39,913 nt of DNA from Deltaproteobacteria bacterium (GTDB lineage: Bacteria; Desulfobacterota; Binatia; Binatales; Binataceae). A model generated the notes under the pieces. That model saw nothing but the letters and a program-made list of their open reading frames with translations, did no database searches and had not been told where the DNA came from. Shown in pieces: positions 6,525-39,913 of this stretch (the stretch's first letter is position 1; every line of letters begins with the position of its first letter). The position numbers were made by a program, and so were the translations under genes. The DNA is taken from positions 1 through 39,913 of the forward strand of contig JAJXZF010000011.1 of assembly GCA_021780225.1 (NCBI GenBank), written 5' to 3'.

Positions 6525-8080
6525 TGGATCCGGCCAGAACGCGCTTGCGATGCGAGCGCGGCTACGGTGCTATATCGCGGACGATCAAGGCGAACCTGCG
6601 CGGCGGCGACGCGATTGAGCAGCAGATTCACCGACGGCTCCATCCGGTCGAGGAGCGGCCGCGGGTAGAGGCCCATCAGCAGCATCAGCGCGATCAACGG
6701 GACCATCACCGCGATTTCCCGCGCGGTCAGGTCTTTCAGCGTCGAGTTAATCGATTTCGTGATCGGCCCCCACATCACGCGCTCATAAGTCCACAGCATG
6801 TAGAGCGCGCCCAGCACGACTCCGGTGACGGCGACCCACGCGGCGCGCTCCGAATGGAGGTACGTGCCAAGCAGAATCAGGAATTCGCCGACGAAGCCGT
6901 TGAGTCCGGGCAGTCCGATCGACGAGAGCATCACCACCATGAAGACGGCGCCATAGATCGGGATGCTTTTCCACAGGCCGCCGAATTCCGAGATATCGAA
7001 GGTATGGCGCCGGACGTAGATCATCCCTACCAGGAGGAACAGCGCGCCGGTCGAGACGCCGTGGTTGAGCATCTGGTAGATCGCGCCCTGCAAGCCCTGC
7101 GGATCGAAGGCGAAGACGCCAAGCATCACGAAACCCAGATGGCTGACGGAGGAATAGGCGATAAGCCGCTTGAGGTTCGGCTGCGCCATCGCGACCAGCG
7201 CGCCGTACACGATGCCGACCACGGCGAGCGCGAGGAACAGCGGCGCGGCCTCGATCGCGACGGTCGGAAAGAGCGGAATCGCGAAGCGCACAAAGCCGTA
7301 GGCGCCCATCTTGAGCATGATGCCGGCCAATATCACGGAACCGGCGGTGGGCGCTTCGGTATGGGCGTCGGGAAGCCAGGTATGCACCGGCCACATCGGC
7401 ACTTTAATCGCGAAGGCGAGCGCGAAGCCGGCGAACAGCCAGCGCGACTCGGCGGGCGAGAGCGATACGCGGTAAAGATCCGGCAGGTCGAAGGTCAGAT
7501 GGCCGAGCTGGGCGCGGGCGGCGCCGGCGAGATAAAGAATCGCGACCAGCATCAGCAGCGACCCCAGCATCGTGAAGAGCACGAATTTGAAGGTCGCGTA
7601 AATTTTGCGCCCGTGGCCCCAGATGCCGATCAACAGGTACATCGGCACCAGCATCACTTCCCAGAAAACATAGAAGAGGAAAAGATCCACCGCGAGCAGC
7701 GCGCCGAGCAGGCCGGTTTCAAGGATCAGCATCATGAAGCAGAATTCGCGCGGCCGCATCTCGATATCGCCGCCGCCCGAATAGAGGATCGAGAGGGTGG
7801 TCAGCAGGGTCGTGAGAATCACCAGGAACAGGCTGATCCCGTCCACGCCGAGGTGGTACGAGATGCCGAACTGGGGTATCCACGCGTAGCGCTCGACGAA
7901 CTGGTAGCCGGCCTGCGACGGATCGAAGATCGCGAACAGATAGAGGCTGATCGCCAGCGGTATAAGCGAATAGATAAACGCCGGAAGCCAGACGGAATCG
8001 TCGTCGCTCTGCAAAAGGACGCCGAGCGCGCCGAGCGCCGGCACGAAGATCAACGCGGTCAGCCAGAACCCGCCCATCAA
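6521..8080 (-). CDS. nuoM: NADH-quinone oxidoreductase subunit M
   Basis: 519 residues, about fourteen transmembrane helices. Landmarks are LETGLLGALLAVDLFLFYVFWEVMLVPMYLLIGIWG with the conserved channel Glu, AFAIKVPMWPVHTWLPDAHTEAPTAGSVILAGIMLKMG, and NLKRLIAYSSVSHLGFVMLG. It is an antiporter-like proton-translocating subunit of the complex I membrane arm. It overlaps nuoL upstream and nuoN downstream by four bases each, so L-M-N form a coupled unit. Length is normal. Confidence 0.95.
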   Translation of the reverse strand: MMGGFWLTALIFVPALGALGVLLQSDDDSVWLPAFIYSLIPLAISLYLFAIFDPSQAGYQFVERYAWIPQFGISYHLGVDGISLFLVILTTLLTTLSILYSGGGDIEMRPREFCFMMLILETGLLGALLAVDLFLFYVFWEVMLVPMYLLIGIWGHGRKIYATFKFVLFTMLGSLLMLVAILYLAGAARAQLGHLTFDLPDLYRVSLSPAESRWLFAGFALAFAIKVPMWPVHTWLPDAHTEAPTAGSVILAGIMLKMGAYGFVRFAIPLFPTVAIEAAPLFLALAVVGIVYGALVAMAQPNLKRLIAYSSVSHLGFVMLGVFAFDPQGLQGAIYQMLNHGVSTGALFLLVGMIYVRRHTFDISEFGGLWKSIPIYGAVFMVVMLSSIGLPGLNGFVGEFLILLGTYLHSERAAWVAVTGVVLGALYMLWTYERVMWGPITKSINSTLKDLTAREIAVMVPLIALMLLMGLYPRPLLDRMEPSVNLLLNRVAAAQVRLDRPRYSTVAALASQARSGRIQ

Positions 8081-10026
8081 CGCATCACCCGGTACAGGTA
8101 GTAGGCGACGATCGCGAGCGCGCCCAGCAGGTAGACGAAGGCGTAAAGCTGGACGTTGCCGGATTCAGCTTTGCTGACCGCTTCGCCGCCCTCCTCGACC
8201 GTGAGGCCGGTCCCGTCAACCATCGCGTCAATCACGCCGCGATCGACGCCGCGATTCAGCAGCACCGCGGAGATCCAGAACAGCGGGCGCGAAACAAGAA
8301 CATCGTAGATTTCGTCGATATAGTATTTGCGCCAGAGCAACTCGTAGAGCGACGAGAGGCTCGCCGAGATCTGATCGGCCAGGCCGGGATTGCGGCGATA
8401 CAGCAACCACGCCGTCAGAATTCCGAGCAGCGCCGCGGACAGCGAGACCGCGCCGAGCAGCGCCGAGGCCGCGCCGGATTCGACTTCCAGCGCGGGCGGC
8501 GCGACCACGCCGGCGATCGGATGATTCACGATCGGCGCAAGGAAACGGCCGAAGGCGTTGCCCCATGCGATTCCCTTCGGCAGGGCGACGAATCCGCCGA
8601 CCGACGACAGGGCCGCGAGCGCGATCAGCGGCGCGGTCATCACGCGCGGCGATTCGTGCAGATGATGCGCGCGTTCGGGTTCGACCCGCGAATCGCCGTA
8701 AAAGGTCATGAAGATCAGGCGAAACATGTAGAAGCTGGTGAGTCCCGCCGTAACGACGCCGAGCAGCCAAAGCCAGACGTGGCCGGAGCCGAACGCCCCG
8801 TCAAGAATCTGATCTTTCGAGAAAAAGCCGGCGAAAGGCGGAATCGCGCTGATCGCGAGCGTCGCGATCAGCATCGTGGCGAACGTAATCGGCAGTTTTT
8901 TCCTGAGCCCGCCCATCTTGTTCATGTCCTGCTCGCCATGCAGGGCGTGAATCACGGAGCCTGAGCACAGGAAGAGCAGGCCCTTGAAGAAGGCGTGCGT
9001 CATCAGATGGAAAACGCCGGCCGAGAACGCGCCGACGCCCACGCCGAGCATCATGTAGCCGATCTGGCTGATGGTCGAGTAGGCGAGAACGCGCTTGATA
9101 TCGGCCTGGACGATCGCGATCGTCGCGGCGAAGAACGCGGTCACGGCGCCGGCCACGGCCACCACTTCCATCGCTTCCGGCGACATCAGGTAGAGGAAAT
9201 TCAGCCGCGCGATCATATAGACGCCGGCCGTGACCATCGTCGCCGCGTGGATCAGGGCGCTGACCGGGGTCGGACCGACCATCGCGTCGGGCAGCCAGAC
9301 ATAAAGCGGAATCTGCGCGGATTTGCCGGTGGCCCCGAAGAACAGGAGCAGCGCGGCGAGCGTCGCGACCGGCGCGAGCAGCGCGGCGTGATCGCGCATC
9401 GCGGCGAAGTCGAGCGTCCATACGTTATGCCGGGCAAGGGCGCCGACCAGCGTCAGAATTCCGAGCAGGAAGCCGAGATCGCCGATCCGGTTGACGATGA
9501 AGGCCTTGCGGCCGTTGTACGCGTATTGCGGGTTGTCGAACCAGAAGGCGATCAGCAGATAGGAACAAAGGCCCACGCCCTCCCATCCGATAAACATCTG
9601 GAGCAGGTTGTCGGCCAGCACCAGCACCAGCATCGAGAGCGCGAACAGGTTGAGATAGGTGAAGTAGCGGGCGTAGTCGTCGTCCTCCGCCATGTAGCCG
9701 GCGGAATAGATGTGAATCAGGGCGCCGACCCCGGTGACGACCAGCGTCATCACAGCGCTCAGAGCGTCGAAACGGAGGCCCAAATCGGCGTGAAACGGGC
9801 CGGCGGCGATCCAGGGCCAGAGCGAGCAGGTCAAGGCCGCACCCGGCGGCATCCTGAGCAGCGCGACGAAGGCCGAGACCGCGACGGCGAAGGCCAGCAC
9901 GATAACGGCGGGGCCGGCGAAGTTGACCGCGCCGCGTCCGGCGCGTCCGCCGTAGAACAGATTGAACAGCACCCCGATCGCGGGAAACAGCAGGATAAGC
10001 GCGAGGGCCGGGAAATTCTGCGTCAT
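8077..10026 (-). CDS. nuoL: NADH-quinone oxidoreductase subunit L
   Basis: 649 residues. The distal antiporter-like subunit of complex I, recognised by YFTYLNLFALSMLVLVLADNLLQMFIGWEGVGLCSYLLI and by GKSAQIPLYVWLPDAMVGPTPVSALIHAATMVTAGVYMI. A C-terminal amphipathic piece and last helix (YAFVYLLGALAIVAYYLYRVM) would form the lateral helix that runs along the membrane arm. ATG at 10026 lies 25 bases after nuoK. Size is typical of the family. Confidence 0.95.
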   Translation of the reverse strand: MTQNFPALALILLFPAIGVLFNLFYGGRAGRGAVNFAGPAVIVLAFAVAVSAFVALLRMPPGAALTCSLWPWIAAGPFHADLGLRFDALSAVMTLVVTGVGALIHIYSAGYMAEDDDYARYFTYLNLFALSMLVLVLADNLLQMFIGWEGVGLCSYLLIAFWFDNPQYAYNGRKAFIVNRIGDLGFLLGILTLVGALARHNVWTLDFAAMRDHAALLAPVATLAALLLFFGATGKSAQIPLYVWLPDAMVGPTPVSALIHAATMVTAGVYMIARLNFLYLMSPEAMEVVAVAGAVTAFFAATIAIVQADIKRVLAYSTISQIGYMMLGVGVGAFSAGVFHLMTHAFFKGLLFLCSGSVIHALHGEQDMNKMGGLRKKLPITFATMLIATLAISAIPPFAGFFSKDQILDGAFGSGHVWLWLLGVVTAGLTSFYMFRLIFMTFYGDSRVEPERAHHLHESPRVMTAPLIALAALSSVGGFVALPKGIAWGNAFGRFLAPIVNHPIAGVVAPPALEVESGAASALLGAVSLSAALLGILTAWLLYRRNPGLADQISASLSSLYELLWRKYYIDEIYDVLVSRPLFWISAVLLNRGVDRGVIDAMVDGTGLTVEEGGEAVSKAESGNVQLYAFVYLLGALAIVAYYLYRVMR

Positions 10027-10051
10027 GAGCTTAGTAGCGATAGACTGCGGT

Positions 10052-10354
10052 TCACCAGCGCAGCAGGTTGAGTTCGTCGGCGTTGACGGTCTCGCGATTG
10101 CGGAACATCGAGATAATGATCGCCAGGCCGACAGCGGCTTCGGCGGCGGCCACGGTCATCACGAAAAACACGATCACCTGGCCGTCCATCGATCCGATTC
10201 TGCGGCCGAGCGCGACGAAAGCGAGATTGACCGCGTTCAGCATCAGCTCGATCGCGAGGAACATCACGATCACGTTGCGGCGAATCAGAACGCCAATCAC
10301 GCCGATCGCGAACAGAACCGCGCTGAGCGCCATGTAATCGATAATCGGCGTCAC
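10052..10354 (-). CDS. nuoK: NADH-quinone oxidoreductase subunit K
   Basis: 100 residues starting at GTG 10354, which sits two bases after the nuoJ stop and about ten bases after a GGAGG ribosome binding site inside nuoJ. Three hydrophobic helices carry the conserved membrane Glu residues ([17 protein letters not shown] and [12 protein letters not shown]). These are the proton-path residues of NuoK/ND4L. An in-frame reading continues far upstream through nuoJ in another frame, but only this part has NuoK character. Size is exactly that of the family. Confidence 0.93.
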
Positions 10355-10356
10355 GT

Positions 10357-10932
10357 TCAGGCGACCTCCCGGCGCGCTTCGGCCGCCCGTGCGCTGGACC
10401 GCGGCGGCAGCGCGGCGATCGCGGCGGACTGGCCGGCGAGACGGCGCGCCAGCGCGACCGCACCCACGATCGAGGCGAGCAGCAGCAGCGAGGTGGTTTC
10501 GAAGGCGATCAGGTAGCGCGAGAACAGCACGTGGGCGAGCGTCGCGACCGAGCCGAAAGAGGGCGCGATCGTGCGCACCTCGCGCAACTTCGGCGCGTGA
10601 GAAAAAATCACGAACAGTTCCGCGGCCAACGCCGCCGCCGCGATCGCGCCGAGCAGCTTGAGGCCGAGGCTGGCGCCGCCGCGGACGCCGGTGTCCGCCT
10701 GGACATTCAGCAGCCAGATCACGAACAGAAAGAGCACCATGATCGCGCCGACATAAACGATTATCTGCAGAAAGCCGACGGTCACGGCCCCGAGGCCCAT
10801 GAAAAGCACGCCCAGATCGATCAGCACCAGCGCAAAGCCGAGCACGCAATGAATCAGGTTGCGTTGCAAAATCGTTCCCAGCGCGCCGATAATCGCCAGC
10901 GCGGCCAGAAACGCGAACAGCCACTGCGGCAT
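10357..10932 (-). CDS. nuoJ: NADH-quinone oxidoreductase subunit J
   Basis: 191 residues with five hydrophobic helices. The segment [31 protein letters not shown] contains the conserved [12 protein letters not shown] helix of NuoJ/ND6, with the pi-bulge tyrosine thought to couple quinone reduction to proton movement. It starts three bases after the nuoH stop and ends two bases before nuoK. The last about 25 residues are Ala/Arg-rich and probably extend into the cytoplasm. Confidence 0.93.
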
Positions 10933-10935
10933 TTT

Positions 10936-12048
10936 CTATTTTCCTCCCGCTGCGACGACCACGAACGCCGTCGCCACCAGGTTGAGCAGTCCGAGCGGCA
11001 CCAGACCCTTCCAACCCAGCCGCATCAGTTGATCATAGCGCAGCCGCGGCAGCGTCCAGCGAATCAGAATCTGCAGGCAACTGAAGATGATCACTTTGAT
11101 CCAGAAGGCGGCGAACTGCAGAATCGCGATCGCGAGATTCGGCAGCGGCCAGCTCGCGCCGCCGGGAAAATGAAAACCGTCGCGATAGAGCCACGGCGCC
11201 TGCCATCCGCCGAAGAAAAAGACCGTGATCAGCACGGCGACCAGCAGCACCTCGGCGAAGTCGGTCATCATGAAGACCGCCTGTTTGCCGCCGGAATATT
11301 CGGTGAAATAGCCCGCGACCAGCTCCGATTCGCTTTCGGGCAGATCGAACGGCACGCGTTTGGATTCGGCCATTCCGGAAATCAGCAGGAGCAGGAATGA
11401 GACCGGTTGCAGCAGGATTCCCCAGCGCGGCAGAAAACCGAACCACACGCCGCCCTGCGCGCGGCACATCTGCTGCAAATCGAGCGTGCCGTAGGTCACG
11501 ACCACCGCGATAATCGCGAGGCTCATCGCGATTTCATAAGAGATCATCTGCGCGCTGGCGCGGATTCCGCCCAGCAGCGCCCAGCGGTTGTTCGAGGCCC
11601 ATCCGCCCAGCGCGACTCCGTAAACGCCGATTCCGATGGTCGCCAGCACGTAGAGCGCGGCGACGTCGAGATTCGCCGGCTGGAGGTCGATCTCGTATTT
11701 GCCGATGCGCAGGATATCGCCCATCGGCGCGACCGCGAAGGTGATGATTATCGGGAACAGCGCCAGAAACGGCGCCAGTCCGTGGAGGAAGCGGTCCGCG
11801 CCGTCCGGCACGAAATCCTCCTTGGTGAACATTTTGATCGGGTCGGCGAGGACGGTGTTGATCACTCCGAAATTCGGCAATCCGAACCGTTTGCCGAGGC
11901 CGAGCACGTCGGCGCGGTTGGCGCCGATTCGATCCTGAATCAGCGCGCTGCCCTTGCGTTCGAACCACAGCATCAGCGTGGTCAGTCCCAACACCAGCAG
12001 GACAATAACCACCGCCTTGATCGCCCCAATCACCAGTTCAATCGTCAC
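10936..12048 (-). CDS. nuoH: NADH-quinone oxidoreductase subunit H
   Basis: 370 residues from GTG 12048. A TTG at 12105 in the same frame would add 19 basic residues that do not resemble the family. NuoH/ND1 anchors the peripheral arm and forms the quinone channel. Characteristic parts are [33 protein letters not shown] and [35 protein letters not shown], the acidic loop lining the quinone site. It is the first gene of the operon. Neither nuoA-G nor nuoI is adjacent, so the peripheral-arm genes must lie elsewhere. Confidence 0.93.
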
Positions 12049-12539
12049 GCCAGAATCGCTCGCCAGCAGGCTTTGGGTATGCGCGCGCCGCCGTATCGGC
12101 CGCAAGCGCGGTTAATCTCGCGAACGGCCCGCGTATCGCCCGCACCTTCCCGAGCGCTTGCTTGAATCGTTTCGGGAAGCCGCGTCCAGCGATTCCGCCG
12201 AGCCACAAAATCCTTAGTTAGGTAGCTTAATTTCGAGACCCGCGCCAGTCTTTGCGGCAATTCCGATCGAACTCGCGTCAAACTTGCGGCGCGGAAGCCG
12301 ACTAAGTTATCGTCCGCCGGGCCGCTTGGGCGCGCCGTTCGGGTTGAGGTAGATATTAGAAGGGCTGTTCGCCGGTGGATGGTTGTCCGGACGCATACGC
12401 CGTCCGGTCCATCCCAGGGAGCGGCTTAAGAGCGCGTAGATGAAAATTACGATTTGATGAACGCCATTTGTCATAGCCGTTCCGCGAGACGATCGGCGGG
12501 TTCGCGGATTGCACGACCGATGCGCCGCGAGTGGTTGCG
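12049..12539. other. Intergenic region between nuoH (-) and rsmD (+)
   Basis: About 490 bases between divergent genes. It must hold the promoters of the nuo operon and of rsmD-coaD, but no clear -10/-35 pair stands out on either strand. A 55-codon minus-strand frame (12307-12474) is open but has no convincing ribosome binding site or recognisable product. Nothing else is supported. Confidence 0.4.
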
Positions 12540-17435: not shown

Positions 17436-17525
17436 GCGCCGGCGCTTTCGCGGCATCGACGCCGACTCGATTTCGGCGGCGCGATGAAAGCTTGCGCGAA
17501 CTTGAGTTTTCAGCCTATCGCTAAT

Positions 17526-17733
17526 CTAGTGTGGCGTCCCGCAAATAAGTTCGCGCTCCGCGTCTGTCTTGCGCTCGGCGTGGATGCCCGGATCAAGTCC
17601 GGGCATGGCCAACTCTGTTCATCATTGCCGGTCTCAGACCCGGCAATCCATCTCTTGCCGCCCCGCGGTGGGCGACCTGCGCGCCGGGCTGATAAGGCGT
17701 CAGGTGGAAGTTATTTGTGAGACATCACACTAG
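17526..17733 (+). mobile_element. MITE-like inverted-repeat element, copy 1
   Basis: A 208-bp element bounded by imperfect 26-base inverted repeats. The left end starts CTAGTGTGGCGTCCCGC and continues AAATAAGTT; the right end is its complement with five mismatches. It also contains two inner palindromes, 17584-17606 (ATGCCCGGA/TCCGGGCAT) and 17624-17647 (ATTGCCGG/CCGGCAAT). There is no coding capacity. Copies 2 and 3 lie at 21500-21727 (same direction) and 39388-39595 (reversed). Both ends contain TA one base in, as expected if TA was the duplicated target, which is the habit of IS630/Tc1-type elements. The rest of the 17436-17842 gap shows nothing else. Confidence 0.75.
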
Positions 17734-17842
17734 TTCGCGCAAGAATAGCATATCGCGGCGGCACAGAAAGTTAAGTTGCGGCGATGAGAACAGGATATTG
17801 CTATCTGAGGTTGTAGAGATTACTTCAGGCAAGCATTGGTAA

Positions 17843-18306: not shown

Positions 18307-18521
18307 CCCGTTCCTCCTTGATATTATCGGGCAAACAGCGAATCCGCTAATGATACCTAACATTTATTCGTCAATCCAACGTTCTGTCACGGACTCTATT
18401 CGGCTTGCAAGCATATCGTAGCGCACGTCACGCCGCAATTATCGAGCAATGCTCTGTGCATGCTTGATTGAACGCCTCAGTGCGAACCGTGAGCCACGCC
18501 TTTTTCGTCCGCCGCGGCGCC

Positions 18522-20231
<1,710 letters not shown>

Positions 20232-20408
20232 CGAGTCGTTTCTCCATCTCTTGTCGTAGTGTCGTTTGGCTCAAATTGGACGCAACCCCGCGCTCGGCGC
20301 GGATGCGACCGCTTTCAAATTAAGCATCCCGCGCGCGGTTGCAAGCCGTTGCCGCTCTTTTCGCGCGATCCTCAAGCTGTCAGGATTGACCTTACAGGGT
20401 TTATAGTC

Positions 20409-20816
20409 GTGCCGAACAGGTTTGCAAATCATTTTCGCCGCGCTTTCGTCGGCGCGGCCGGAGCGGCGCTGATCGCCATTGCCGGGCGCGGCGCCGGCGC
20501 CTCCGCGATCGCGCCGCCGACTCTTCTCCACCCGGCGAACGGGACGCGCATCTCCGCGCCACATCGGTTGCGCCGATGGGCGCAGGATGACGCCGACGGC
20601 GGCGCGGGCAGCGTCGCGCCTGACGAAGTCGAAAAGTACGTCGCGGTGTACGTCTCGATGCAACGCGATCGATCGTTGTCGATTCAGCGCGCGGCGGCCC
20701 GTCAAGGACTTACGCTCGATCAATTCCGCGCGCTCGAAAGCAAGATCGAGCGCGACGACGCCGCACGCGAGCAGGCGCGCCGGGAATTGCGGTCGGCCGC
20801 GATCAAAAACCATTGA
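20409..20816 (+). CDS. Small secreted/periplasmic protein of unknown function
   Basis: 135 residues from GTG 20409. After a basic start (NRFANHFRR) comes a hydrophobic stretch ending in an Ala-Gly-Ala-Ser-Ala sequence typical of signal-peptidase I cleavage. The C-terminal half, from about residue 70, is predicted helical: EVEKYVAVYVSMQRDRSLSIQRAAARQGLTLDQFRALESKIERDDAAREQARREL. The pattern is that of a periplasmic two-helix protein, and I do not recognise a named family. The frame is open much further upstream, but only as the antisense of groEL. It is divergent from groEL and convergent with the lipoprotein gene. Confidence 0.55.
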   Translation: MPNRFANHFRRAFVGAAGAALIAIAGRGAGASAIAPPTLLHPANGTRISAPHRLRRWAQDDADGGAGSVAPDEVEKYVAVYVSMQRDRSLSIQRAAARQGLTLDQFRALESKIERDDAAREQARRELRSAAIKNH

Positions 20817-21499: not shown

Positions 21500-21727
21500 C
21501 GTGTGACGTCGCGCAAATAAGTTTGCACTCCGCGTCTGTCTTGCGCTCCGCGTGGATGCCCGGATCAAGTCCGGGCATGACGCCAACACTGTGCGTCATT
21601 GCCAGGCTCAGACCCGGCAATCCATCTCTTGTCGCCCCGCGCTGGCTCTTGTCGCCCCGCGCTGGGCTACCTGAGCGCCGAGCTGGCAAGGCCTCAGGCG
21701 GAAGTTATTTGCGGGACGCCACATTAG
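21500..21727 (+). mobile_element. MITE-like inverted-repeat element, copy 2
   Basis: The same element as at 17526-17733, in the same direction. The left end reads GTGTGACGTCGCGC then AAATAAGTT; the right end reads AAGTTATTTGCGGGACGCC then ACATTAG. The left terminal TA is lost. The GCCCGGATCAAGTCCGGGC and CAGACCCGGCAAT palindromes are kept. About 20 extra bases come from a tandem duplication of the segment CTCTTGTCGCCCCGCGCTGG. The 21728-21968 stretch after it holds only a 36-codon unsupported frame and the region before rimI. Confidence 0.75.
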
Positions 21728-31900: not shown

Positions 31901-32674
31901 CTACGCCACGTAAAATCGTGTGCCGCAAAGCTTGATTTCGTCGTCGCCGACCGCGCATCCGCGCTGCCGCGCCGCCGCCATCAGGCGCGCCTTGTCCGCC
32001 GCGACGATATCGATTCCGCCGAGACCTTCGCCGCGCCCGTCGATCATTTCGACGAAACGCACGGCGGCGTTGTCGAGCGGCATCTCGAAGCGGCCGCGCG
32101 CGTCTTTGCGCAACGGAATCTCGGCGATCGAGCTCCAGCGTTCGGCCAATCCTTTCGGGTCGGCCGATTGCAATTCGACGGCGGCATAGGCTTTCACCAC
32201 GTCGGTTCGTCGCGCCGGCGTCCATCCCGCCCCGCCCGCCGGCATCCAGTTGCCCTCCGGCTCGCCTTTGGCGTCCCAATCGATCTCGAAAAACGCGCCG
32301 CCAGTGTCGGCCGGATGGAGCTGCATCGCGTGGAACGCTTTCGCTTCGTGCTCCCACGCCACACGGATATTCAGCGCCTTCGCCCGCTCCTTGCGTCCGA
32401 GCTGCACGGCGTGGCTGTCGCACTGGCAGATGACCATGTAGCCGCCGTCGCCGTTGCGCCGCTTGAGATAGCGGCCGGCGGCGGTGTCGTCCTTCACGGG
32501 AGCCACCACTTCAATGAAATTCGATCCCACCGGCATCAACGAGTTCTCCAATCCGAACACCGCGACCTCGGGATCCTTGAAGCAAACCTCGAGGCCCATC
32601 ACGGCCTTGAAATCTTCGATCACCGGGGCGAGCTGGTTGGCGACCAGACAAATCTGGCGAAGCCGTATCGACAT
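31901..32674 (-). CDS. VOC-superfamily (glyoxalase-like) protein
   Basis: 257 residues from ATG 32674, after a GGAGGA site. The beta-alpha-beta-beta-beta units of the vicinal-oxygen-chelate fold are visible, starting with RLRQICLVANQLAPVIEDFKAVMGLEVCF and VGSNFIEVVAPVKDDTAAGRYLKRRNGDGGYMVICQC. The second half repeats a similar unit with DVVKAYAAVELQSADPKGLAERWSSI. Glu in FIEVV, and His/Glu residues later, could bind metal. Members include glyoxalases, dioxygenases and isomerases; no reaction can be assigned. Likely co-transcribed with the downstream amidohydrolase and divergent from the isoprenoid-type cluster, across 258 bases. Confidence 0.8.
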   Translation of the reverse strand: MSIRLRQICLVANQLAPVIEDFKAVMGLEVCFKDPEVAVFGLENSLMPVGSNFIEVVAPVKDDTAAGRYLKRRNGDGGYMVICQCDSHAVQLGRKERAKALNIRVAWEHEAKAFHAMQLHPADTGGAFFEIDWDAKGEPEGNWMPAGGAGWTPARRTDVVKAYAAVELQSADPKGLAERWSSIAEIPLRKDARGRFEMPLDNAAVRFVEMIDGRGEGLGGIDIVAADKARLMAAARQRGCAVGDDEIKLCGTRFYVA

Positions 32675-32932: not shown

Positions 32933-35131
32933 GTGAGCAAGGACGGGCCGGTAAAAATCGCTATCGTCGGTGGCGGATGCGCCGCGATGGCGGCGGCGTT
33001 CGAGCTGACCCGTCCTGAACATCGAGGCCGGTTTCAGGTAACCGTCTATCAACTCGGATGGCGGCTCGGCGGCAAAGGCGCTTCGGGCCGCGGTCCGGCC
33101 GATCGGATCGAAGAGCACGGCCTCCATATCTGGATGGGCTTTTACGAAAACGCGTTTCGCCTGCTGCGCGAGTGTTATGCGGAATTGTCCGACCAGCCGG
33201 GCCGGCGTTTCGCCGACTGGCGCGACGCCTTTTCGATCGAACCGGGCGTTGGCGTGATGGCGCGCAAGACGCCGGACGGATGGGAGCCGTGGACGGCCGC
33301 GTTCGCGCCGCGCGCGGGGATGCCCGGCGATCCGTTGCCGGGGCGTCATAGCTTCACGATCGCCGGCTACCTCGTCGAGATCGCCGGGATGCTGCAGGCG
33401 GCGCTTGCGAATCTTCAATTCGGCGCGTCGTCGGAACCGGACAACGCCGCCCGGCCCTTCGATTTTAATTCGAACGAAGAGCTTGCGGCCGCGATCGCGA
33501 AGGTCTTCAAATTCGGCCTGCTCGCGACATTCGCCGGCGCCTTGCAGGCGCTGGCGCTGCTGGAAGCGGCGTTTCGCGCCGCCGCGCCGGATTGGTCGGG
33601 CGCTCTCCGCGATCTGACGGAAGCGGCGGCCGGAGCGATCCGGCGGCTGGCGGAGCCGCTCGCCGATCGCGATTCCGACTCGCGACGGCTGTGGGACGTC
33701 ATCGATCTGAACCTGGCCGTGATGACCGGAATAATCCGGTTCGGACTTGCGGCCGATCCGCGCGGATTCGACGCGCTCGACAATTATGAGTTGCGCGACT
33801 GGCTGAAACTCAACGGGGCCGGCGCGCGCGCGCTCGATTCGCCTTTGATGCACGGCGTGTACGATCTCGCCTTCGCCTACGCCGGCGCCGATCCGGCGCG
33901 GCCGCGGCAGGCCGCGAGTGTGGCGCTGCGCGGCACGCTCAGGATGTTCTTCACCTGGCGCGGCGCCTTTTTCTGGCGGATGCACGCCGGCATGGGCGAC
34001 GTTGTATTCGCCCCGTTTTACCAGGCGCTCAAGCGCCGCGGCGTAAGGTTTTGTTTTTTCCATCGCCTCGAAAACCTCCGGCTGGCCGATCCTGCGACGC
34101 TTGCGCCGGGCGAACGTTCCTACGTCGCCGCGCTCGACTTCGACGTACAGGCGGACGTCGCGAACGGCGGCGAATATCAGCCCTTAATCGATGTGCGCGG
34201 CTTGCCGTGCTGGCCGTCGGCGCCCGATTTCAGTCAGCTTGCCGACGGCGCGCGGATGGCGCAGGAAGGCCGCGAGTTCGAATCGTTCGCGGATCGCCGC
34301 CGCGTGCATTCGCTCACTTTGCGCGCCGGAACCGATTTCGACGCCGTCGTGCTGGCGGTGGGATTGGGCGCGCTTCCGCAAGTGGCGCGCGAGTTGATCG
34401 CGCGCGACCGGCGCTGGCGCGAGATGGTCGAAAATCTTCCGACCGTGGCCACGCAGGCGTTTCAAATCTGGCTGCGCGAGGATTTCGCATCGCTCGGATG
34501 GACCGAGCCGCGCGCCGTCGTCTCCGGCTTTATCCATCCGTTCGACACTTTCGCCGACATGGGCCATCTGCTTCCGCAGGAAAGTTGGACGATGCGGCCG
34601 CGCGCGCTGGGCTATTTTTGCAGCGCCCTGCCCGATCCGCCGCCGGCGCGGGATGCGAATCCGGTCGAGCGCGCGCATGGACCGTCGTTCGCTTCCGATC
34701 CGGACTATGCGCATCGCCGGCGGCGAGAGGTGCGCGAGAGCGCGGTCGGTTTTCTCGATCGCGACGCCGCCGCGCTCTGGCCGCGCGCAGTCGCTCCGTC
34801 GGGCGGTTTCCGCTGGGAACTGCTCGCCGATCCGTCCGGTAATTGGGACGCGAATGGCTCCGGCGCCACCGCCGCATGCTTCGACTCGCAGTTCTGGACC
34901 GCCAACGTCAATCCCTCCGACCGCTATGTGCAATCGCCGCCGGGTTCGACCCGTTATCGGATTTCGCCGCTCGACAACACCTACGACAATCTGACGATCG
35001 CGGGCGATTGGACCGCGTGCGGTTTGAACGTCGGATGCGTCGAAGCGGCCGTGATCTCGGGCCAGCTTGCGGCGCACGCCCTGAGCGGCGCTCCAAAGCT
35101 GGAAGAGATCGTTGGCTATGACCATCCATGA
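32933..35131 (+). CDS. Large FAD-dependent oxidoreductase, phytoene-desaturase/amine-oxidase-like
   Basis: 732 residues from GTG 32933; no strong ribosome binding site is visible. The N-terminal dinucleotide fold reads VKIAIVGGGCAAMAAAFELT and continues into VTVYQLGWRLGGKGASGR, the second FAD contact. The EEHGLHIWMGFYENAF block matches the EHGFHxFxxxYxN segment of carotenoid desaturases and hydroxysqualene-type oxidoreductases. The C-terminus LTIAGDWTACGLNVGCVEAAVISGQLAAHAL is the usual closing FAD motif. At 732 residues it exceeds typical desaturases (about 450-520). The extra length lies in the middle (about 140-300), which has hydrophobic helices that could attach it to membrane. It begins the plus-strand cluster and is probably its first transcribed gene. 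Confidence 0.85.
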   Translation: MSKDGPVKIAIVGGGCAAMAAAFELTRPEHRGRFQVTVYQLGWRLGGKGASGRGPADRIEEHGLHIWMGFYENAFRLLRECYAELSDQPGRRFADWRDAFSIEPGVGVMARKTPDGWEPWTAAFAPRAGMPGDPLPGRHSFTIAGYLVEIAGMLQAALANLQFGASSEPDNAARPFDFNSNEELAAAIAKVFKFGLLATFAGALQALALLEAAFRAAAPDWSGALRDLTEAAAGAIRRLAEPLADRDSDSRRLWDVIDLNLAVMTGIIRFGLAADPRGFDALDNYELRDWLKLNGAGARALDSPLMHGVYDLAFAYAGADPARPRQAASVALRGTLRMFFTWRGAFFWRMHAGMGDVVFAPFYQALKRRGVRFCFFHRLENLRLADPATLAPGERSYVAALDFDVQADVANGGEYQPLIDVRGLPCWPSAPDFSQLADGARMAQEGREFESFADRRRVHSLTLRAGTDFDAVVLAVGLGALPQVARELIARDRRWREMVENLPTVATQAFQIWLREDFASLGWTEPRAVVSGFIHPFDTFADMGHLLPQESWTMRPRALGYFCSALPDPPPARDANPVERAHGPSFASDPDYAHRRRREVRESAVGFLDRDAAALWPRAVAPSGGFRWELLADPSGNWDANGSGATAACFDSQFWTANVNPSDRYVQSPPGSTRYRISPLDNTYDNLTIAGDWTACGLNVGCVEAAVISGQLAAHALSGAPKLEEIVGYDHP

Positions 35132-35180
35132 TTGGGAGAAAAGGGCTGTCAGGCGCTGAATCAACGGCTATTTGAAGACC

Positions 35181-35984
35181 ATGAGCGCAAACGATCGCTT
35201 TCGACGCCCGGACCCGGTTCGCATCGCGCCGTTGCGCGCGTGGTCGGCTTTGGTCCGTCCGGGAAGCGCCCCGGAATCTCCGCACGACGATTCCGGAAAC
35301 GGCTGTGGCGCGATGGACGCATCGCCGGGCGGCGCGGGAGCTTCCGAAGCCGCTGCTCCAGACACCGAGATCGCGGATGCGGTCGCCACGGCCTATCGCG
35401 TGGTCGAGCGCCATCTGTCGGCCGGCCGCGAGGCCGCGCGCTTGCTTGGCCGGGGATCGGCCGGCGCCGATCGCGCGGCGGAGGAGGCCGCCGATCGCGC
35501 CGGCAACGCCGGCTTCGCGATCATCGGGACGGGGCTTGAAGAGCTGATCGGCGAGGCGGCGCGCGCGTTTGCCGGGATGATGCCGGCGTTCTCCGCGATG
35601 CTGGAGGCGCTCGGACGACCGCCTTACATGGGACTCGCCGCCGCAAACGGCTGGGATGGAGCTTCAGCGCCGCGCGGGAATCCGGACGCGGCGCCGGGAC
35701 CGAATTTCGCGATCGAGGTCGCGTCGATGCGGCCCGCTCGAGTTGCGCTCGACCTTGCGCCTGGAGCCGATCCCGCGACTCTTGCCGTTGCCGGATTGCA
35801 TGCGATTGAAGCGGGTCGGCCGCCAATCGCCGAGGTCGCGTTCATCGTGGGCGGTGCGGGCGAGCGGCCGGTGCTGAGTATCCGCGTGCCGGCGGCGGCC
35901 GCACCCGGAATATACGCCGGCGCGATCGTCGATCGCGGGAATGGCGAGCCGCGGGGAACGATTTCAGTGAAGGTGGGCGAATAG
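35181..35984 (+). CDS. Uncharacterised two-part protein of the isoprenoid-type cluster
   Basis: 267 residues from ATG 35181 (TTG 35172 is possible). I do not recognise a named domain. Residues about 1-60 are low-complexity. Residues 60-150 are strongly helical and Ala/Glu/Arg-rich (EIADAVATAYRVVERHLSAGREAARLL), somewhat like phasin or other surface-coating helices. Residues about 180-267 look like a small beta-sandwich that ends RVPAAAAPGIYAGAIVDRGNGEPRGTISVKVGE. No signal peptide or membrane helix is seen. It starts 49 bases after the FAD gene and ends nine bases before the polyprenyl synthase, so it is surely part of the same operon. A granule- or surface-binding role is only a guess. Confidence 0.7.
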   Translation: MSANDRFRRPDPVRIAPLRAWSALVRPGSAPESPHDDSGNGCGAMDASPGGAGASEAAAPDTEIADAVATAYRVVERHLSAGREAARLLGRGSAGADRAAEEAADRAGNAGFAIIGTGLEELIGEAARAFAGMMPAFSAMLEALGRPPYMGLAAANGWDGASAPRGNPDAAPGPNFAIEVASMRPARVALDLAPGADPATLAVAGLHAIEAGRPPIAEVAFIVGGAGERPVLSIRVPAAAAPGIYAGAIVDRGNGEPRGTISVKVGE

Positions 35985-35993
35985 GCGGCCGCG

Positions 35994-37049
35994 ATGAACG
36001 GAGCGGAAGCGATCGCCGTCCAGGGAGATTCCGCGCATCTGGCGCCGGCATTGATGGCCGAGTATGGCGGGCTTGCGCGCGCCGCGCTCGACCGATATCT
36101 CGACCGGCGCGAAAGCTGCGATTTTCTGCGCGAGTTGGCTTCGGATTATCCACGGCGCGGCGGGCGGATGATGCGCCCGGCGATATGTATCGCGGCGGCG
36201 CGCGCCTTCGGCGCCCATCCCGAAGACGCCGTGGCGACGGCCGCGGCGATCGAACTGCTGCACAACGCGCTGCTGGTTCACGACGATATCGAGGACGCGA
36301 GCCTCGAACGGCGCGGCCGCCCGACGCTCCATCGGTTGCATGGCGTGCCGCTCGCGCTCAACGCCGGCGACGCGCTCGCGTTGATGAGCCTCGCGCCGCT
36401 GCTCGAAAATCGCGCCCGGCTCGGCATGGCGCTGACGATGCGCCTGCTTGAAGAGACGGCGCGGACGGCGGCCGAATGCGCCGACGGGCAGGCGCTGGAA
36501 TTGGGCTGGCGCGATCGCAACGTGCTCGACCTCGCGCCGGCCGACTATCTTGAGATGGCGCTCAAGAAGACCTGCTGGCTCGCGGTCATCCATCCCCTGC
36601 GCGCGGGCGTGTTGATTGCGACGCGCGGCGCCGTCGATCCCGACGCATACGTGCGTTTCGGCTTCTTGGTTGGCGCGGCGTTCCAGATTCAGGACGACCT
36701 GCTCAACCTGGTTGGGAACGACAGTTACGGGAAAGAGCGCGACGGCGATTTGTGGGAAGGCAAACGCACGCTTATTCTCATTCGCCTGCTCGCGTCGGCC
36801 GCGGCGGCGGAGCGGGAGCGGATCGCGGCGATTCTCGCCTCCAGCCGCGAGCGCCGGTCGGAGTCCGACGTCCGCTGGATGCGCGGTTTGATCGATCGTT
36901 ACGGATGTATCGAGTACGCGCGCCGGATGGCGCACGGTCTTGCCGGAGCGGCGCTGCATGAATTTTCCCGGCATTTCGCGGAGCTGCCGGATTCCCGCGA
37001 CAAGCGGTTTCTTGAGGAACTGCCGACATGGGTAATCGAACGCGCCTGA
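35994..37049 (+). CDS. E-type polyprenyl diphosphate synthase
   Basis: 351 residues. The family condenses isopentenyl diphosphate onto allylic diphosphates. The first aspartate-rich motif is D97-D98-I-E-D101, followed by RRGRPTLH. The second motif reads D234-D235-L-L-N238 within FQIQDDLLNLVGN, with Asn in place of the usual last Asp. The N-terminal diphosphate-binding GGRMMRP and the later GKERDGDLWEGKRTLI are kept. Residues four and five before the first motif are Leu93 and Ala92, not aromatic, which in this family allows chains longer than C15 (inference: C20 or more). It is translated almost directly after the previous gene. Confidence 0.9.
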   Translation: MNGAEAIAVQGDSAHLAPALMAEYGGLARAALDRYLDRRESCDFLRELASDYPRRGGRMMRPAICIAAARAFGAHPEDAVATAAAIELLHNALLVHDDIEDASLERRGRPTLHRLHGVPLALNAGDALALMSLAPLLENRARLGMALTMRLLEETARTAAECADGQALELGWRDRNVLDLAPADYLEMALKKTCWLAVIHPLRAGVLIATRGAVDPDAYVRFGFLVGAAFQIQDDLLNLVGNDSYGKERDGDLWEGKRTLILIRLLASAAAAERERIAAILASSRERRSESDVRWMRGLIDRYGCIEYARRMAHGLAGAALHEFSRHFAELPDSRDKRFLEELPTWVIERA

Positions 37050-37156
37050 TGCGCGGCGGATGAAAGGCGCGATCGCGGAAATAGTTCCATTCATCGCCGC
37101 AACGATACGCGGAAGCTTGGACAACGGTTGTCGCAACCTGCGAGGAGACTCGAAAC

Positions 37157-39391
37157 ATGGCCGAATCCCGATTGCCGGAATACAACGCAAGCATCGCGAA
37201 CCTGCTTGATTGGCCGACCACCGACGTCAAGATGTATTTCCCCAAGGTGGGGATGCGCTTTTATCCGCTGCGGGCCGATCTCGGCCGGCTGCAGGCGCTG
37301 CTCGACTCCTACCTGAATTTCGCCGGCGATCGCGTGAACCAGCCCCCTTATATGTTCAAGGCGGCCGCGCCTTTCGTGCTGCTCCAGACCGTCAATTACG
37401 ACCGGCTCGAAATCGACGCCGGCGCCGGCGCTCAACCGCGCAAGCCGCTCGCGTGGCTCAAGCAGCACGAGGCGATCTTCAGCATCCCGATCGAATGGTA
37501 CGAATGGAAAGGCTCGGAGTGGCGCTTCGTGGATTGGGCGATGACCTATCCGTTCATCTACCTGGATCATCCGATTTCAATCTGGATCGGCCGCGAGATG
37601 TACGGATGGCCGAAGATGCCGATGCGCGTTCCGAAGCTGTTTCCGCTGGTGAATCCCCCGGATCCGAAGGGCCGCGTGGAGTTCTGGCTCGGCGGCCGTT
37701 CGGCGCGGAATCCGGAGCGTCCGGAACCATACCGGCCGTTTATCGAAATCGACGAGGCGGCATCCGGCTTCTATCCTCTCGCAAGCTGGGGAGAGTGGTT
37801 GACGCGATGGCCGAAAATGGCGTCGGACGCGCTGTCCACGATGGCGGCGTTGACCGATATCGCGCGCGGCGCCGGGGTGGCGCAATGGCTCGCGGGCTGG
37901 GGCCGATCCGAACCCTTTCCGGCCGCCGCGCGGGAGAGCCTTAAGTACGCCAGCCAGTGGGGACCGCAGCTCCTCAACATGTTCGGCTCGGTCAAAACCG
38001 GCGAAACGCATCAATTCACGCCTTCGCCGTTTATGAAAAACAATATAGTGCTCAAGCAATTCCGCGACGCGCATGATTTCAAATCGGCCTGCTATCAGGC
38101 GCTGGTCAAATCCGAACTGGCGGTCCAGGGCGTGCATGGCGGCGGGTTTCTGTTCAACCCGATGCTCGGCGACCCGGCCGGCGGCGTCACGATCAAGCTT
38201 CATCATTTCGACCAGGAGCCGGTGATCGAAGCGCTCGGGCTGAATCACGAAGCCACGACGATCGCCGGCCCGTCCGGCGAGCAGCGCAAGGTTTATGAGT
38301 TCCGGCCGTTCTTTCCATTCTGGTGGGACCTCGACCTGACGTATGGGAAAGCCGAACAGCTATGCTGGCGCGCAAAGACGACCAAATGGTCGACCACCGA
38401 CGATCCCGGCGAGCGGCGCCCGATCGCGGACGATTACGTGACGTCGGGCGGAGGCGCGATCGCCGAGATCGGCGGAGCCGTGAAGTTTCCGAATTTCGAG
38501 ATGCTGGTGATGCCGCTGCCGGCCGCTCGCACGACTCTCGATAGCCTCTGTGCAACCTGTCTGAATCACGAGAATTATAAATTTCGGACCAGCTCCGATT
38601 ACGTGCTCGCGATCGCCAATCAATTTCGAGCCGCGTCGGCCGCGACCGACCCGCTTGAACGATTGGCCGACAGCGAATTTGTTTTCGCCGTCGCCGGCGA
38701 ATATCGCGATGAATCGAATCCGTCCGCGGGCTGGCGGCCAGTCGTGATGCCGATGATCGGCTTCACCGGCGCGGAATGGGATTCGATCTCGGATCGCGAA
38801 GTATTCGGACGCTTTAGTCTGGCTTCAAAATTCATTCCGGCGAATTCTCCGCTGCTGGGAGACTTTTCCACGCGCGAACCGCACATCGGTTTCTATCTTC
38901 AGACCTCGCTCTGCCACGAGCTCAACGACGACGAGCAGGCGAGGCTTTGGACCTTGCTTGGCGTCGGCAGTGCGGGAGCGACGACGGCGCCGCTGCCTGA
39001 AATCAAAGCATGGCTGAGTAAGCTTGGACTCGGGTCAATCTCCGCCGCAGCGGGTTTCGAGACGGTCGGACTGAAGCAATTCCGCGACGCCTGCCTCGCG
39101 AACAAGGCCTGTTATCAGGCGCTGGTGAGCGAGCGCCGTGTTTTTGACCAAAATCTCAAAATCGATTTTTTGCCTGAATCGATTCGAATCGACATTCACA
39201 AATTCGACACGATGGATCTGGTCGCAACGTTCGGCATCACGGGCGGCAGCGAAGAAGCTCAAGGCCGTTTTCGGCGCCCATGCTATTCAGTCGATGCGGT
39301 GAATCCGTTCAGGGTGTCGGGCGGAATGCGGCAATCGCCGCCCGAAAATTTATGCTGGCGGGCGGGCGCGATGGCCTGGCAAAGGGGTTAG
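37157..39391 (+). CDS. Acetoacetate-decarboxylase-like protein with two tandem domains; 3' end shaped by a MITE insertion
   Basis: 744 residues from ATG 37157, nine bases after GGAG. The first half (about 1-370) resembles acetoacetate decarboxylase-superfamily proteins: PFIYLDHPISIWIGREMYGWPKMPMRVPKLFP carries the GxPK segment with a Lys. The second half repeats the fold (PVVMPMIGFTGAEWDSISDREVFGRFSLASKFIP) but lacks that Lys. Repeat pairs are obvious: LKQFRDA at residues 299 and 639, each followed by ACYQALV, and EQLCWRA against ENLCWRA. The last codons lie next to a MITE whose first bases (39388-39391) make the TAG stop. No signal peptide is seen. It ends the plus-strand cluster. Confidence 0.8.
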   Translation: MAESRLPEYNASIANLLDWPTTDVKMYFPKVGMRFYPLRADLGRLQALLDSYLNFAGDRVNQPPYMFKAAAPFVLLQTVNYDRLEIDAGAGAQPRKPLAWLKQHEAIFSIPIEWYEWKGSEWRFVDWAMTYPFIYLDHPISIWIGREMYGWPKMPMRVPKLFPLVNPPDPKGRVEFWLGGRSARNPERPEPYRPFIEIDEAASGFYPLASWGEWLTRWPKMASDALSTMAALTDIARGAGVAQWLAGWGRSEPFPAAARESLKYASQWGPQLLNMFGSVKTGETHQFTPSPFMKNNIVLKQFRDAHDFKSACYQALVKSELAVQGVHGGGFLFNPMLGDPAGGVTIKLHHFDQEPVIEALGLNHEATTIAGPSGEQRKVYEFRPFFPFWWDLDLTYGKAEQLCWRAKTTKWSTTDDPGERRPIADDYVTSGGGAIAEIGGAVKFPNFEMLVMPLPAARTTLDSLCATCLNHENYKFRTSSDYVLAIANQFRAASAATDPLERLADSEFVFAVAGEYRDESNPSAGWRPVVMPMIGFTGAEWDSISDREVFGRFSLASKFIPANSPLLGDFSTREPHIGFYLQTSLCHELNDDEQARLWTLLGVGSAGATTAPLPEIKAWLSKLGLGSISAAAGFETVGLKQFRDACLANKACYQALVSERRVFDQNLKIDFLPESIRIDIHKFDTMDLVATFGITGGSEEAQGRFRRPCYSVDAVNPFRVSGGMRQSPPENLCWRAGAMAWQRG

Positions 39392-39595
39392 TGAAGTGTC
39401 CCGCAAATAACTTCGACCTGATGCCTTATCGGCTCGGCGCGCAGGTCGCCCAGCGCGGGGCGACCTGGGATGGATTGCCGGGTCTGGGCCCGGCAATGAC
39501 GAACAGCGTTGGTCATGCCCTGACTTGATCCGGGCATCCACGCCGAGCGCAAGATCGACGCTGAGCGCAAACTTATCCAGGGGACGCCACACTAG
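39388..39595 (-). mobile_element. MITE-like inverted-repeat element, copy 3 (reversed)
   Basis: 208 bp, in the opposite direction to copies 1 and 2. Left end TTAGTGAAGTGTCCCGC then AAATAACTT; right end AACTTATCCAGGGGACGCC then ACACTAG. The GCCGGG/CCCGGC and GCCCTGACTTGATCCGGGC palindromes are retained. Its left edge supplies the stop codon of the decarboxylase-like gene. Its right edge supplies the stop of the transposase remnant that follows. Confidence 0.75.
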
Positions 39596-39746
39596 TGCTT
39601 CGACCCAGGGTTAGCGATTGTTTTGTAGTGAAAGACACGGCGTGCGTCTGCGGTGGAGAAGCGCCAGTCGATTTTGATTTTGGAGCGATTGGCCCATCGG
39701 TTCCAAGCACTGGTGCGCCGGCGCAGTTCGATCAGGCTCGCCACCC
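39592..39746 (-). pseudogene. IS630-family transposase remnant, C-terminal fragment
   Basis: On the minus strand the reading RVASLIELRRRTSAWNRWANRSKIKIDWRFSTADARRVFHYKT matches the C-terminus of IS630-type transposases, whose ends have W-x-N-R-x-x-x-IDW-x-F-x-x-x-DAR. It runs into the MITE, which supplies a TAG, and on the other side meets the start of an IS3-type element. Only about 50 residues remain. It may have been cut by both neighbours. Confidence 0.6.
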
Positions 39747-39800: not shown

Positions 39801-39913
39801 ATGCCGAAATCACATCCGCCATACCCGGCCGAATATCGGCGGCGGATGGTCGAACGGGTGCGCGCGGGACGGTCGCTGAAAGAGTTGGCGCGTGAGTTCG
39901 AACCGTCGGTCGA
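39801..39913 (+). CDS. IS3-family transposase OrfA, N-terminal part (cut by window edge)
   Basis: ATG 39801 follows AAGGAGGAACAG. The 37 residues read MPKSHPPYPAEYRRRMVERV, then RAGRSLKELAREFEPSV. This is the N-terminal helix-turn-helix start of IS3/IS911-type OrfA, which binds the element ends. OrfB, normally made by frameshifting, would lie beyond the window edge. Confidence 0.75.
   Translation, partial: MPKSHPPYPAEYRRRMVERVRAGRSLKELAREFEPSV

Follow-up and report, generated by a model that had tools for sequence, protein, structure and literature searches.

A conserved gene neighborhood of Binataceae that may make and tailor a long isoprenoid

The analyzed window, a stretch of 39,913 nucleotides from a Binataceae genome of 3.8 Mb (G000), comprises the whole of contig C10 and carries four adjacent genes from a conserved neighborhood. 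Our best explanation, which we favor tentatively, is a locus in which six genes, four of them in the window, would build a long isoprenoid (C20 or longer) and then modify it. The features discussed below are as follows; the coordinates of P1, P3, and P4 are those of the list of open reading frames (ORFs).

32933-35131, plus strand: P1, predicted FAD oxidoreductase, GTG start, 732 amino acids
35181-35984, plus strand: P2, 267 amino acids from the ATG at 35181; the ORF from a TTG spans 35172-35984
35994-37049, plus strand: P3, predicted trans-polyprenyl diphosphate synthase, 351 amino acids
37157-39391, plus strand: P4, predicted double acetoacetate decarboxylase (ADC) protein, 744 amino acids
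37175-38389, plus strand: predicted first ADC domain of P4, residues ~7-411; 3c8w, Z 20.9, rmsd 3.1, 235 aligned
38420-39388, plus strand: predicted second ADC domain of P4, residues ~422-744; 3bh2, Z 17.7, rmsd 3.8, 233 aligned
39396-39746, no strand given: repeat and fragment of a DDE transposase element, 94.6% identical to C78:2650-3000 (L122)

The genes are separated by 49 (35132-35180), 9 (35985-35993), and 107 (37050-37156) bases, and the ORF coordinates agree with a preliminary description of four plus-strand genes with these gaps. Its assignment of the enzymes to carotenoid-type FAD oxidoreductases, E-type prenyl synthases, and the ADC superfamily is matched by profile and fold comparisons, and the combination of families is real and unusual. 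Against the same-genus relative G011 (locus L035), dN/dS is 0.136 for P1, 0.468 for P2, 0.144 for P3, and 0.205 for P4. Thus, all four evolve as genes, with P2 the fastest.

The main evidence comes from the gene neighborhood. A scan of genome contigs with a P1 alignment confirmed at least 554 relatives, and the best 80, chosen by P1 only, were kept. The closest 52 are referred to as inner loci (L035-L086) and the other 28 as outer loci (L087-L114); their genes were picked with a codon-GC score. The record titles name Myxococcota, Acidobacteria, Cyanobacteria, Gemmatimonadota, Planctomycetota, Proteobacteria, Actinobacteria, and others; many of the relatives are MAGs, and isolated odd placements may be binning errors. 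Among the 52 inner loci, P1 is accompanied by P2 in 49, by P3 in 49, by P4 or another ADC in 41, by an SDR or a second reductase in 40, and by a signaling cyclase in 31. When both flanks extend for at least 7 kb (n = 24), the respective counts are 24, 24, 20, 22, and 20. The one-strand order P1-P2-P3 is found in 43 of the 52, with P4 next in 28; the nine remaining inner loci deviate in arrangement, strand, or the genes present, or are truncated at contig ends. The full set of P2, P3, ADC, cyclase, and SDR or reductase is present in 20/52 inner loci and in 14/24 of those with full flanks. The conserved association for which the preliminary description looked to other genomes is thus present in these P1-selected loci. 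Its four-gene cluster was correct as to the four genes and incomplete as to the locus: relatives have at least six, adding the SDR and the cyclase.

Several further comparisons point in the same direction. Distances of P1 and P3 correlate at 0.887 over 58 of the best 80 loci, those where both proteins are long enough; the best of 999 permutations reached 0.154. Of 41 genomes from the family of the window, 13 have a strong P1 match (E up to 1e-60). P3 at the same threshold occurs in 11 genomes, ten of them among these 13, and P4 in ten, nine of them among the 13. The exceptions are G028, with P3 and no strong P1, and G004, with a partial P4 on a cyclase contig and no P1. The cyclase lies near P1 in 53 of the best 80 loci (36/44 of those with both flanks of at least 7 kb), and its chance density is ~0.02 per 22 kb, a figure that rests on 135 matches (E up to 1e-50, counting fragments) in the 41 genomes (~157 Mb), summed from a rounded table; the comparison is rough because scoring and genomes differ. 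Within the family, the cyclase is found within 10 kb of P1 in 10/14 places (E up to 1e-60). The remaining places are in G000, G013, and G038, where P1 sits at a contig end, and in G033, where the cyclase is genuinely absent from the vicinity.

The outer loci are less uniform, with P2 in 12/28, P3 in 13/28, an ADC in 10/28, the cyclase in 22/28, and an SDR or reductase in 8/28, and no ADC was found in the 12 mycobacterial loci (L090, L092, L093, L096, L098, L102, L104, L106-L109, L112). Hence the P1 family must also work without an ADC or without P2 and P3. The frequent lack of P2, P3, and ADC in outer relatives counts against our explanation, in that the isoprenoid and ADC steps are not obligatory for P1-type proteins.

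Gene fusions pair P1 with ADC and P2 with P3. The P1-ADC fusion of Qingshengfaniella (L018) has a C-terminal ADC (PF06314, 31.3 bits, above the cut-off of 29.8), and L091, L111, and L113 have an N-terminal ADC with the lysine motif described below. The P2-P3 fusion is in L088, an Actinobacteria MAG, where residues 83-197 match a mycobacterial P2 profile (1.7e-8) and residues 240-484 form the P3 domain. By these fusions, P2 is tied to P3 in one relative, and the ADC to P1 in four. Among plasmid relatives of P1, for which four of 11 records were inspected, an ADC gene adjoins P1 in Catenovulum and Azospirillum; in Rufibacter, neither Pfam nor our own profile identifies the gene that follows P1 as an ADC. 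A tblastn search of plasmids with P4 gave no match.

Individual loci contain additional genes. All 12 mycobacterial loci encode a protein of ~470-530 aa in the vicinity of the cyclase and P1 (e.g., L090:4871-6298, plus strand), with no Pfam match for the two members scanned and no NCBIfam match for the one scanned. In some of these loci, a small protein before the cyclase (L096:6285-6800, plus strand) looks by eye like a second P2-type protein, helical with a beta-sandwich. Methyltransferases of one family are encoded near P1 in 5/52 inner loci (L040:5338-6108, L041, L045, L051, L083), a hint that some products are methylated. ADC-type genes similar to the C-terminal domain of L018 are present at L043:17792-19339, L052:18113-18916, L056:8107-8892, L061:16869-17843, and L097:13052-14068, in three of the five loci alongside P4 or a gene of its type. 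On a plasmid of Azospirillum sp. TSH58 (L020:9953-16667), two P1-type FAD genes flank genes for an outer membrane transport protein and an ADC, and a gene for a large AAA protein adjoins the group.

The two genes missing from the window are found elsewhere in its genome. In L035, P4 stops three bases short of the end of an opposite-strand gene for an HpnA/3beta-HSD-like SDR, which is followed by a gene for a zinc-ribbon/class III cyclase/AAA_16/TPR protein. Both are present on contig C78 of the window's genome, the SDR with 86% and the cyclase with 85% identity to L035, and both are under purifying selection (dN/dS 0.149 and 0.163, respectively, against L035). The window matches L035 up to position 16446 of the latter, and C78 matches it from 16449. 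At the repeat that matches the window end, C78 has a transposase ORF whose domains are DDE_3 and HTH_32. Most simply, one six-gene locus would have been split by an insertion, or its assembly broken at a repeat; we infer that the SDR and cyclase are linked to the window across the contig break, and left of the element C78 carries other genes. The C78 SDR scores 127.8 bits to HpnA (TIGR03466) and its L035 ortholog 137.3, both below the cut-off of 367.65. The C78 cyclase scores 454.4 bits to the TOMM kinase/cyclase model (TIGR03903), below its cut-off of 705.75, matching from model position 259 on.

Judged by its sequence, P1 belongs to the CrtP/CrtQ/HpnE superfamily of FAD oxidoreductases (plant-type carotene desaturases) and carries a long insertion in its central part. 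It matches Pfam NAD_binding_8 (8.1e-10) and HpnE (TIGR03467; 5.5e-18, best stretch residues 9-89), the latter with 65.5 bits against a cut-off of 283.05; its NCBIfam matches to zeta-carotene desaturase and phytoene desaturase are also below the cut-offs. A PDB sequence search with P1 alone gave no match. The best solved sequence match of a profile of nine P1 relatives is the plant-type phytoene desaturase of rice (5mog), aligned at both the N- and C-terminal FAD motifs. However, the E-value is only 6.1e-6, P1 has 732 residues with its long insertion, and no phytoene synthase was seen among the conserved neighbor families scanned around P1, namely the cyclase, the SDR, the second reductase, the methyltransferase, and a mycobacterial protein with no family match. 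The same families contain no terpene cyclase, squalene synthase, or P450, in line with the absence of these enzymes noted in the preliminary description.

P3 is assigned by its motifs and homology to the trans-polyprenyl diphosphate synthases. It matches polyprenyl_synt (PF00348) with 170.8 bits (4.1e-50; cut-off 27) and has both Asp-rich motifs, DDIED, the first, and FQIQDDLLN. Its closest solved homolog is the Thermus GGPP synthase 1wmw (216.5 bits over residues 29-346). In this family, chain length depends on the residue five positions before the first DDxxD motif, and alanine there permits C20 or more. P3 has Ala at this position, as do 67/75 P3-type ORFs, a set that includes duplicate contigs and three ORFs with no readable motif. 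As 1wmw has Trp in place of this Ala, a longer product of P3 is possible. The Ala makes the C20 or longer product of the preliminary description plausible. As a family 2 encapsulin cargo polyprenyl transferase (NF041169), P3 was rejected at 169.5 bits against a cut-off of 450.

P2 is probably a partner or scaffold of P3. The window protein has no Pfam or NCBIfam match. Its structural model (mean pLDDT 73.1) has a disordered N-terminus, a helical hairpin (residues ~60-145), and a well-predicted Ig-like beta sandwich (~175-265). The fold search returned generic Ig folds only, none at E up to 0.001. An iterated P2 profile found 73 matching ORFs, 25 of which were aligned with the window P2 (alignment A2); a Pfam scan of 26 P2 homologs gave three families, with one member each.

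P4 is modeled as two ADC folds in one chain (AlphaFold, pLDDT 80.0, pTM 0.83). The strong fold matches are ADC structures only, the best non-ADC row having Z 4.4. By sequence the likeness is remote: Pfam PF06314 scores 17.8 bits (E 0.0025), below the cut-off of 29.8, and a PDB sequence search with P4 alone gave no match. In alignment A3, which comprises the window P4 and 19 of 72 P4 matches, Lys153 of the first domain (motif GREMYGWPK) is kept in 20/20 rows, and the second domain has no lysine at the matching column in 20/20 rows. The P4 profile aligns Lys153 with the first PKK lysine of 4zbo, a Streptomyces enzyme, at an E-value of only 0.056. We take Lys153 to be the Schiff-base residue of the ADC superfamily, so that P4 has both the fold of the superfamily (Z 20.9 to 3c8w) and its lysine. 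Both halves of P4 share the fold of the acetoacetate decarboxylase 3c8w and the ADC-like aldolase-dehydratases 4zbo/4zbt. Unlike 3c8w and 4zbo, P4 has two domains per chain, the second with no lysine, and a Pfam score below the cut-off.

Six sphingomonad loci have two single ADC genes in place of P4, one with the lysine pattern and the other with a different residue, which suggests that P4 is a fused pair of a catalytic and a non-catalytic ADC. Among 68 ADC relatives (four duplicate contigs removed), 52 have the strict lysine pattern. The 16 misses include the six sphingomonad second ADCs and five proteins (L043, L048, L051:7629, L052, L066) that retain the lysine behind a variant motif seen in A3; the other five (L050, L057, L061, L062:10199, L079) carry no assignment as lysine-keeping or lysine-less.

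From the observed families, conserved neighborhood, fusions, and retained catalytic residues, we infer the following chemistry and product. P3, helped by P2 as a scaffold or lipid tether, would make an all-trans polyprenyl diphosphate. P1 with FAD would then change the position of a C=C or C-O bond in the chain by desaturation, isomerization, or reductive dehydroxylation, similar to CrtP, CrtQ, and HpnE, and the HpnA/3beta-HSD-like SDR would interconvert alcohol and ketone. Lys153 in the first ADC domain of P4 could form a Schiff base with the carbonyl, leading to a double-bond shift, decarboxylation, or a (retro-)aldol step, and the lysine-less second domain may be structural or substrate-binding. 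The class III cyclase/AAA/TPR protein may sense a cue and set the activity via a cyclic nucleotide.

Such a scheme would transfer the logic of CLA-HY (a FAD hydratase), CLA-DH (an SDR), and CLA-DC (an ADC-family isomerase) from a fatty acid to an isoprenoid. According to two reports, CLA-DC of lactobacilli isomerizes the keto-lipid that CLA-HY and CLA-DH produce, and cla-dh is on a common transcript with cla-dc (PMC11719350, PMC9241672). In the CLA-HY/CLA-DH/CLA-DC/CLA-ER system of Lactiplantibacillus plantarum, a lipid double bond is processed sequentially by a FAD enzyme, an SDR, and a protein of the ADC family. The likeness is one of function only: oleate hydratase (PF06100, MCRA) is absent from the six Pfam families matched by P1 at E up to 1, so P1 falls outside the CLA-HY family. 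The outer relative L100 has a sub-threshold PF06100 match (16.3 of 23 bits). The cited passages on the CLA system describe nothing that corresponds to P2, P3, or the cyclase (PMC11719350, PMC9241672), and the CLA substrate is a fatty acid, whereas that of the cluster is probably an isoprenoid. Neither an enone reductase nor a prenyl-accepting enzyme was recognized with the cluster by a search set that did not include a CLA-ER model. We count this against our explanation, along with the sub-cut-off Pfam score of P4, the lack of a PF06100 match for P1, and the contig break between the window and the SDR and cyclase genes.

A bolder and rather doubtful proposition is that the locus represents an undescribed class of bacterial isoprenoid pathways, with a P2-partnered polyprenyl synthesis, oxidation by an HpnE/CrtP-like enzyme and an SDR, lysine-dependent carbonyl remodeling by a double ADC, gating by a cyclase/ATPase, and inheritance as a unit across many phyla. 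Searches of an open-access library of 5.39 million papers, with subscription papers and cluster databases outside their scope, gave no paper on this gene combination, and a description may exist elsewhere. If the isoprenoid reading is right, Myxococcota, Acidobacteria, Cyanobacteria, Proteobacteria, mycobacteria, and uncultured soil lineages (by record titles) would share a common isoprenoid pathway, and an unnamed branch of the carotene desaturase/HpnE proteins, the doubled ADC proteins, and a family of cyclase/ATPase regulators would acquire a function. The presence of named strains among the relatives, such as the cluster carriers Novosphingobium sediminis, Rhodopila globiformis, and Synechococcus sp. 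BO 8801, means that the product can be sought directly.

The substrate of P1 could also be of another kind. We consider it unlikely that P1 and the ADC modify a fatty acid or hydrocarbon by hydration, isomerization, or saturation under control of the cyclase, with P2 and P3 recruited in part of the family and their prenyl group anchoring or decorating the product and not serving as the substrate of P1. This would fit the P1-ADC pairs that lack P2 and P3 in distant relatives (L019, L020, L087, L091, L094, L095, L103, L110, L111, L113, L114), the FadL-type transport protein encoded between the FAD gene and the ADC in Azospirillum, the patatin-like phospholipase near P1 in Rufibacter, and the fatty acid substrate of the CLA precedent. 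However, the nearest named relatives of P1 act on isoprenoids, P2 and P3 are its most constant partners in the inner clade (24/24 loci with full flanks), and the correlation of P1 and P3 distances is high (0.887).

A divergent carotenoid or hopanoid branch would keep the isoprenoid substrate and change the role of P3, which would only feed the pathway, with P1 desaturating or dehydroxylating a C30/C40 head-to-head product made elsewhere. The scores of P1 to HpnE and to the zeta-carotene and phytoene desaturases, that of the cluster SDR to HpnA, and two SQS_PSY genes on contig C9 of the window's genome agree with such a branch. The Binatota genome paper reports crtB, crtP, and crtQ in the phylum, and some of these might be P1-type genes; the words squalene, desaturase, decarboxylase, and adenylate cyclase do not occur in the main text of the paper (PMC8262859). 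We nevertheless regard this branch as quite unlikely. The scores of P1 and the SDR all lie far below the cut-offs, and contig C9 has, in a row, the two SQS_PSY genes and the genome's own HpnE (416.8 bits) and HpnA (457.1 bits), both over the cut-offs; given this true pair, P1 and the cluster SDR are distant cousins, and not members, of the HpnE and HpnA of hopanoid loci. The conserved neighbors scanned include no SQS_PSY. To our knowledge, neither the ADC nor the cyclase has a role in carotenoid or hopanoid pathways, which we count against this branch. An ordinary hopanoid or carotenoid locus was dropped as a candidate on the same scores and C9 genes.

A signaling or defense module, in which a cyclase/AAA/TPR sensor would respond to stress or phage attack by switching P1 and the ADC to produce or break down a lipid, is very improbable. 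In its favor, outer relatives keep the cyclase more often than any other partner (22/28), and the catalytic domain of the cyclase matches PycC models of the Pycsar system (PycC plus effector) with up to 60.4 bits, for which PADLOC shows no cut-off, but these matches cover the general class III cyclase domain only, and gene order and purifying selection look metabolic. The PADLOC scan took in the cyclase, P1-P4, and the SDR; P1-P4 and the SDR gave no match, and a defense system was dropped as a candidate.

Other parts of the window contain further features. Dispersed repeats of ~220-250 bases lie at 17491-17743, 21502-21723, and 39396-39600. The first two end in imperfect inverted repeats (17 and 22 nt) and resemble small non-autonomous relatives of the C78 transposase element. 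At 39801-39913, the start of an ORF with a weak HTH_Tnp_1 match (17.3 bits, cut-off 24.1) is cut by the contig end. A 257-aa minus-strand ORF at 31901-32674, with no Pfam match at E up to 1e-5, has relatives beside P1 in five other loci. At 18468-20816, a 782-aa ORF, also with no Pfam match at E up to 1e-5, lies opposite a 569-aa ORF, and the stretch is 85% conserved in L035. Genes for NADH dehydrogenase/antiporter-type membrane subunits occupy the minus strand at 5028-12105.
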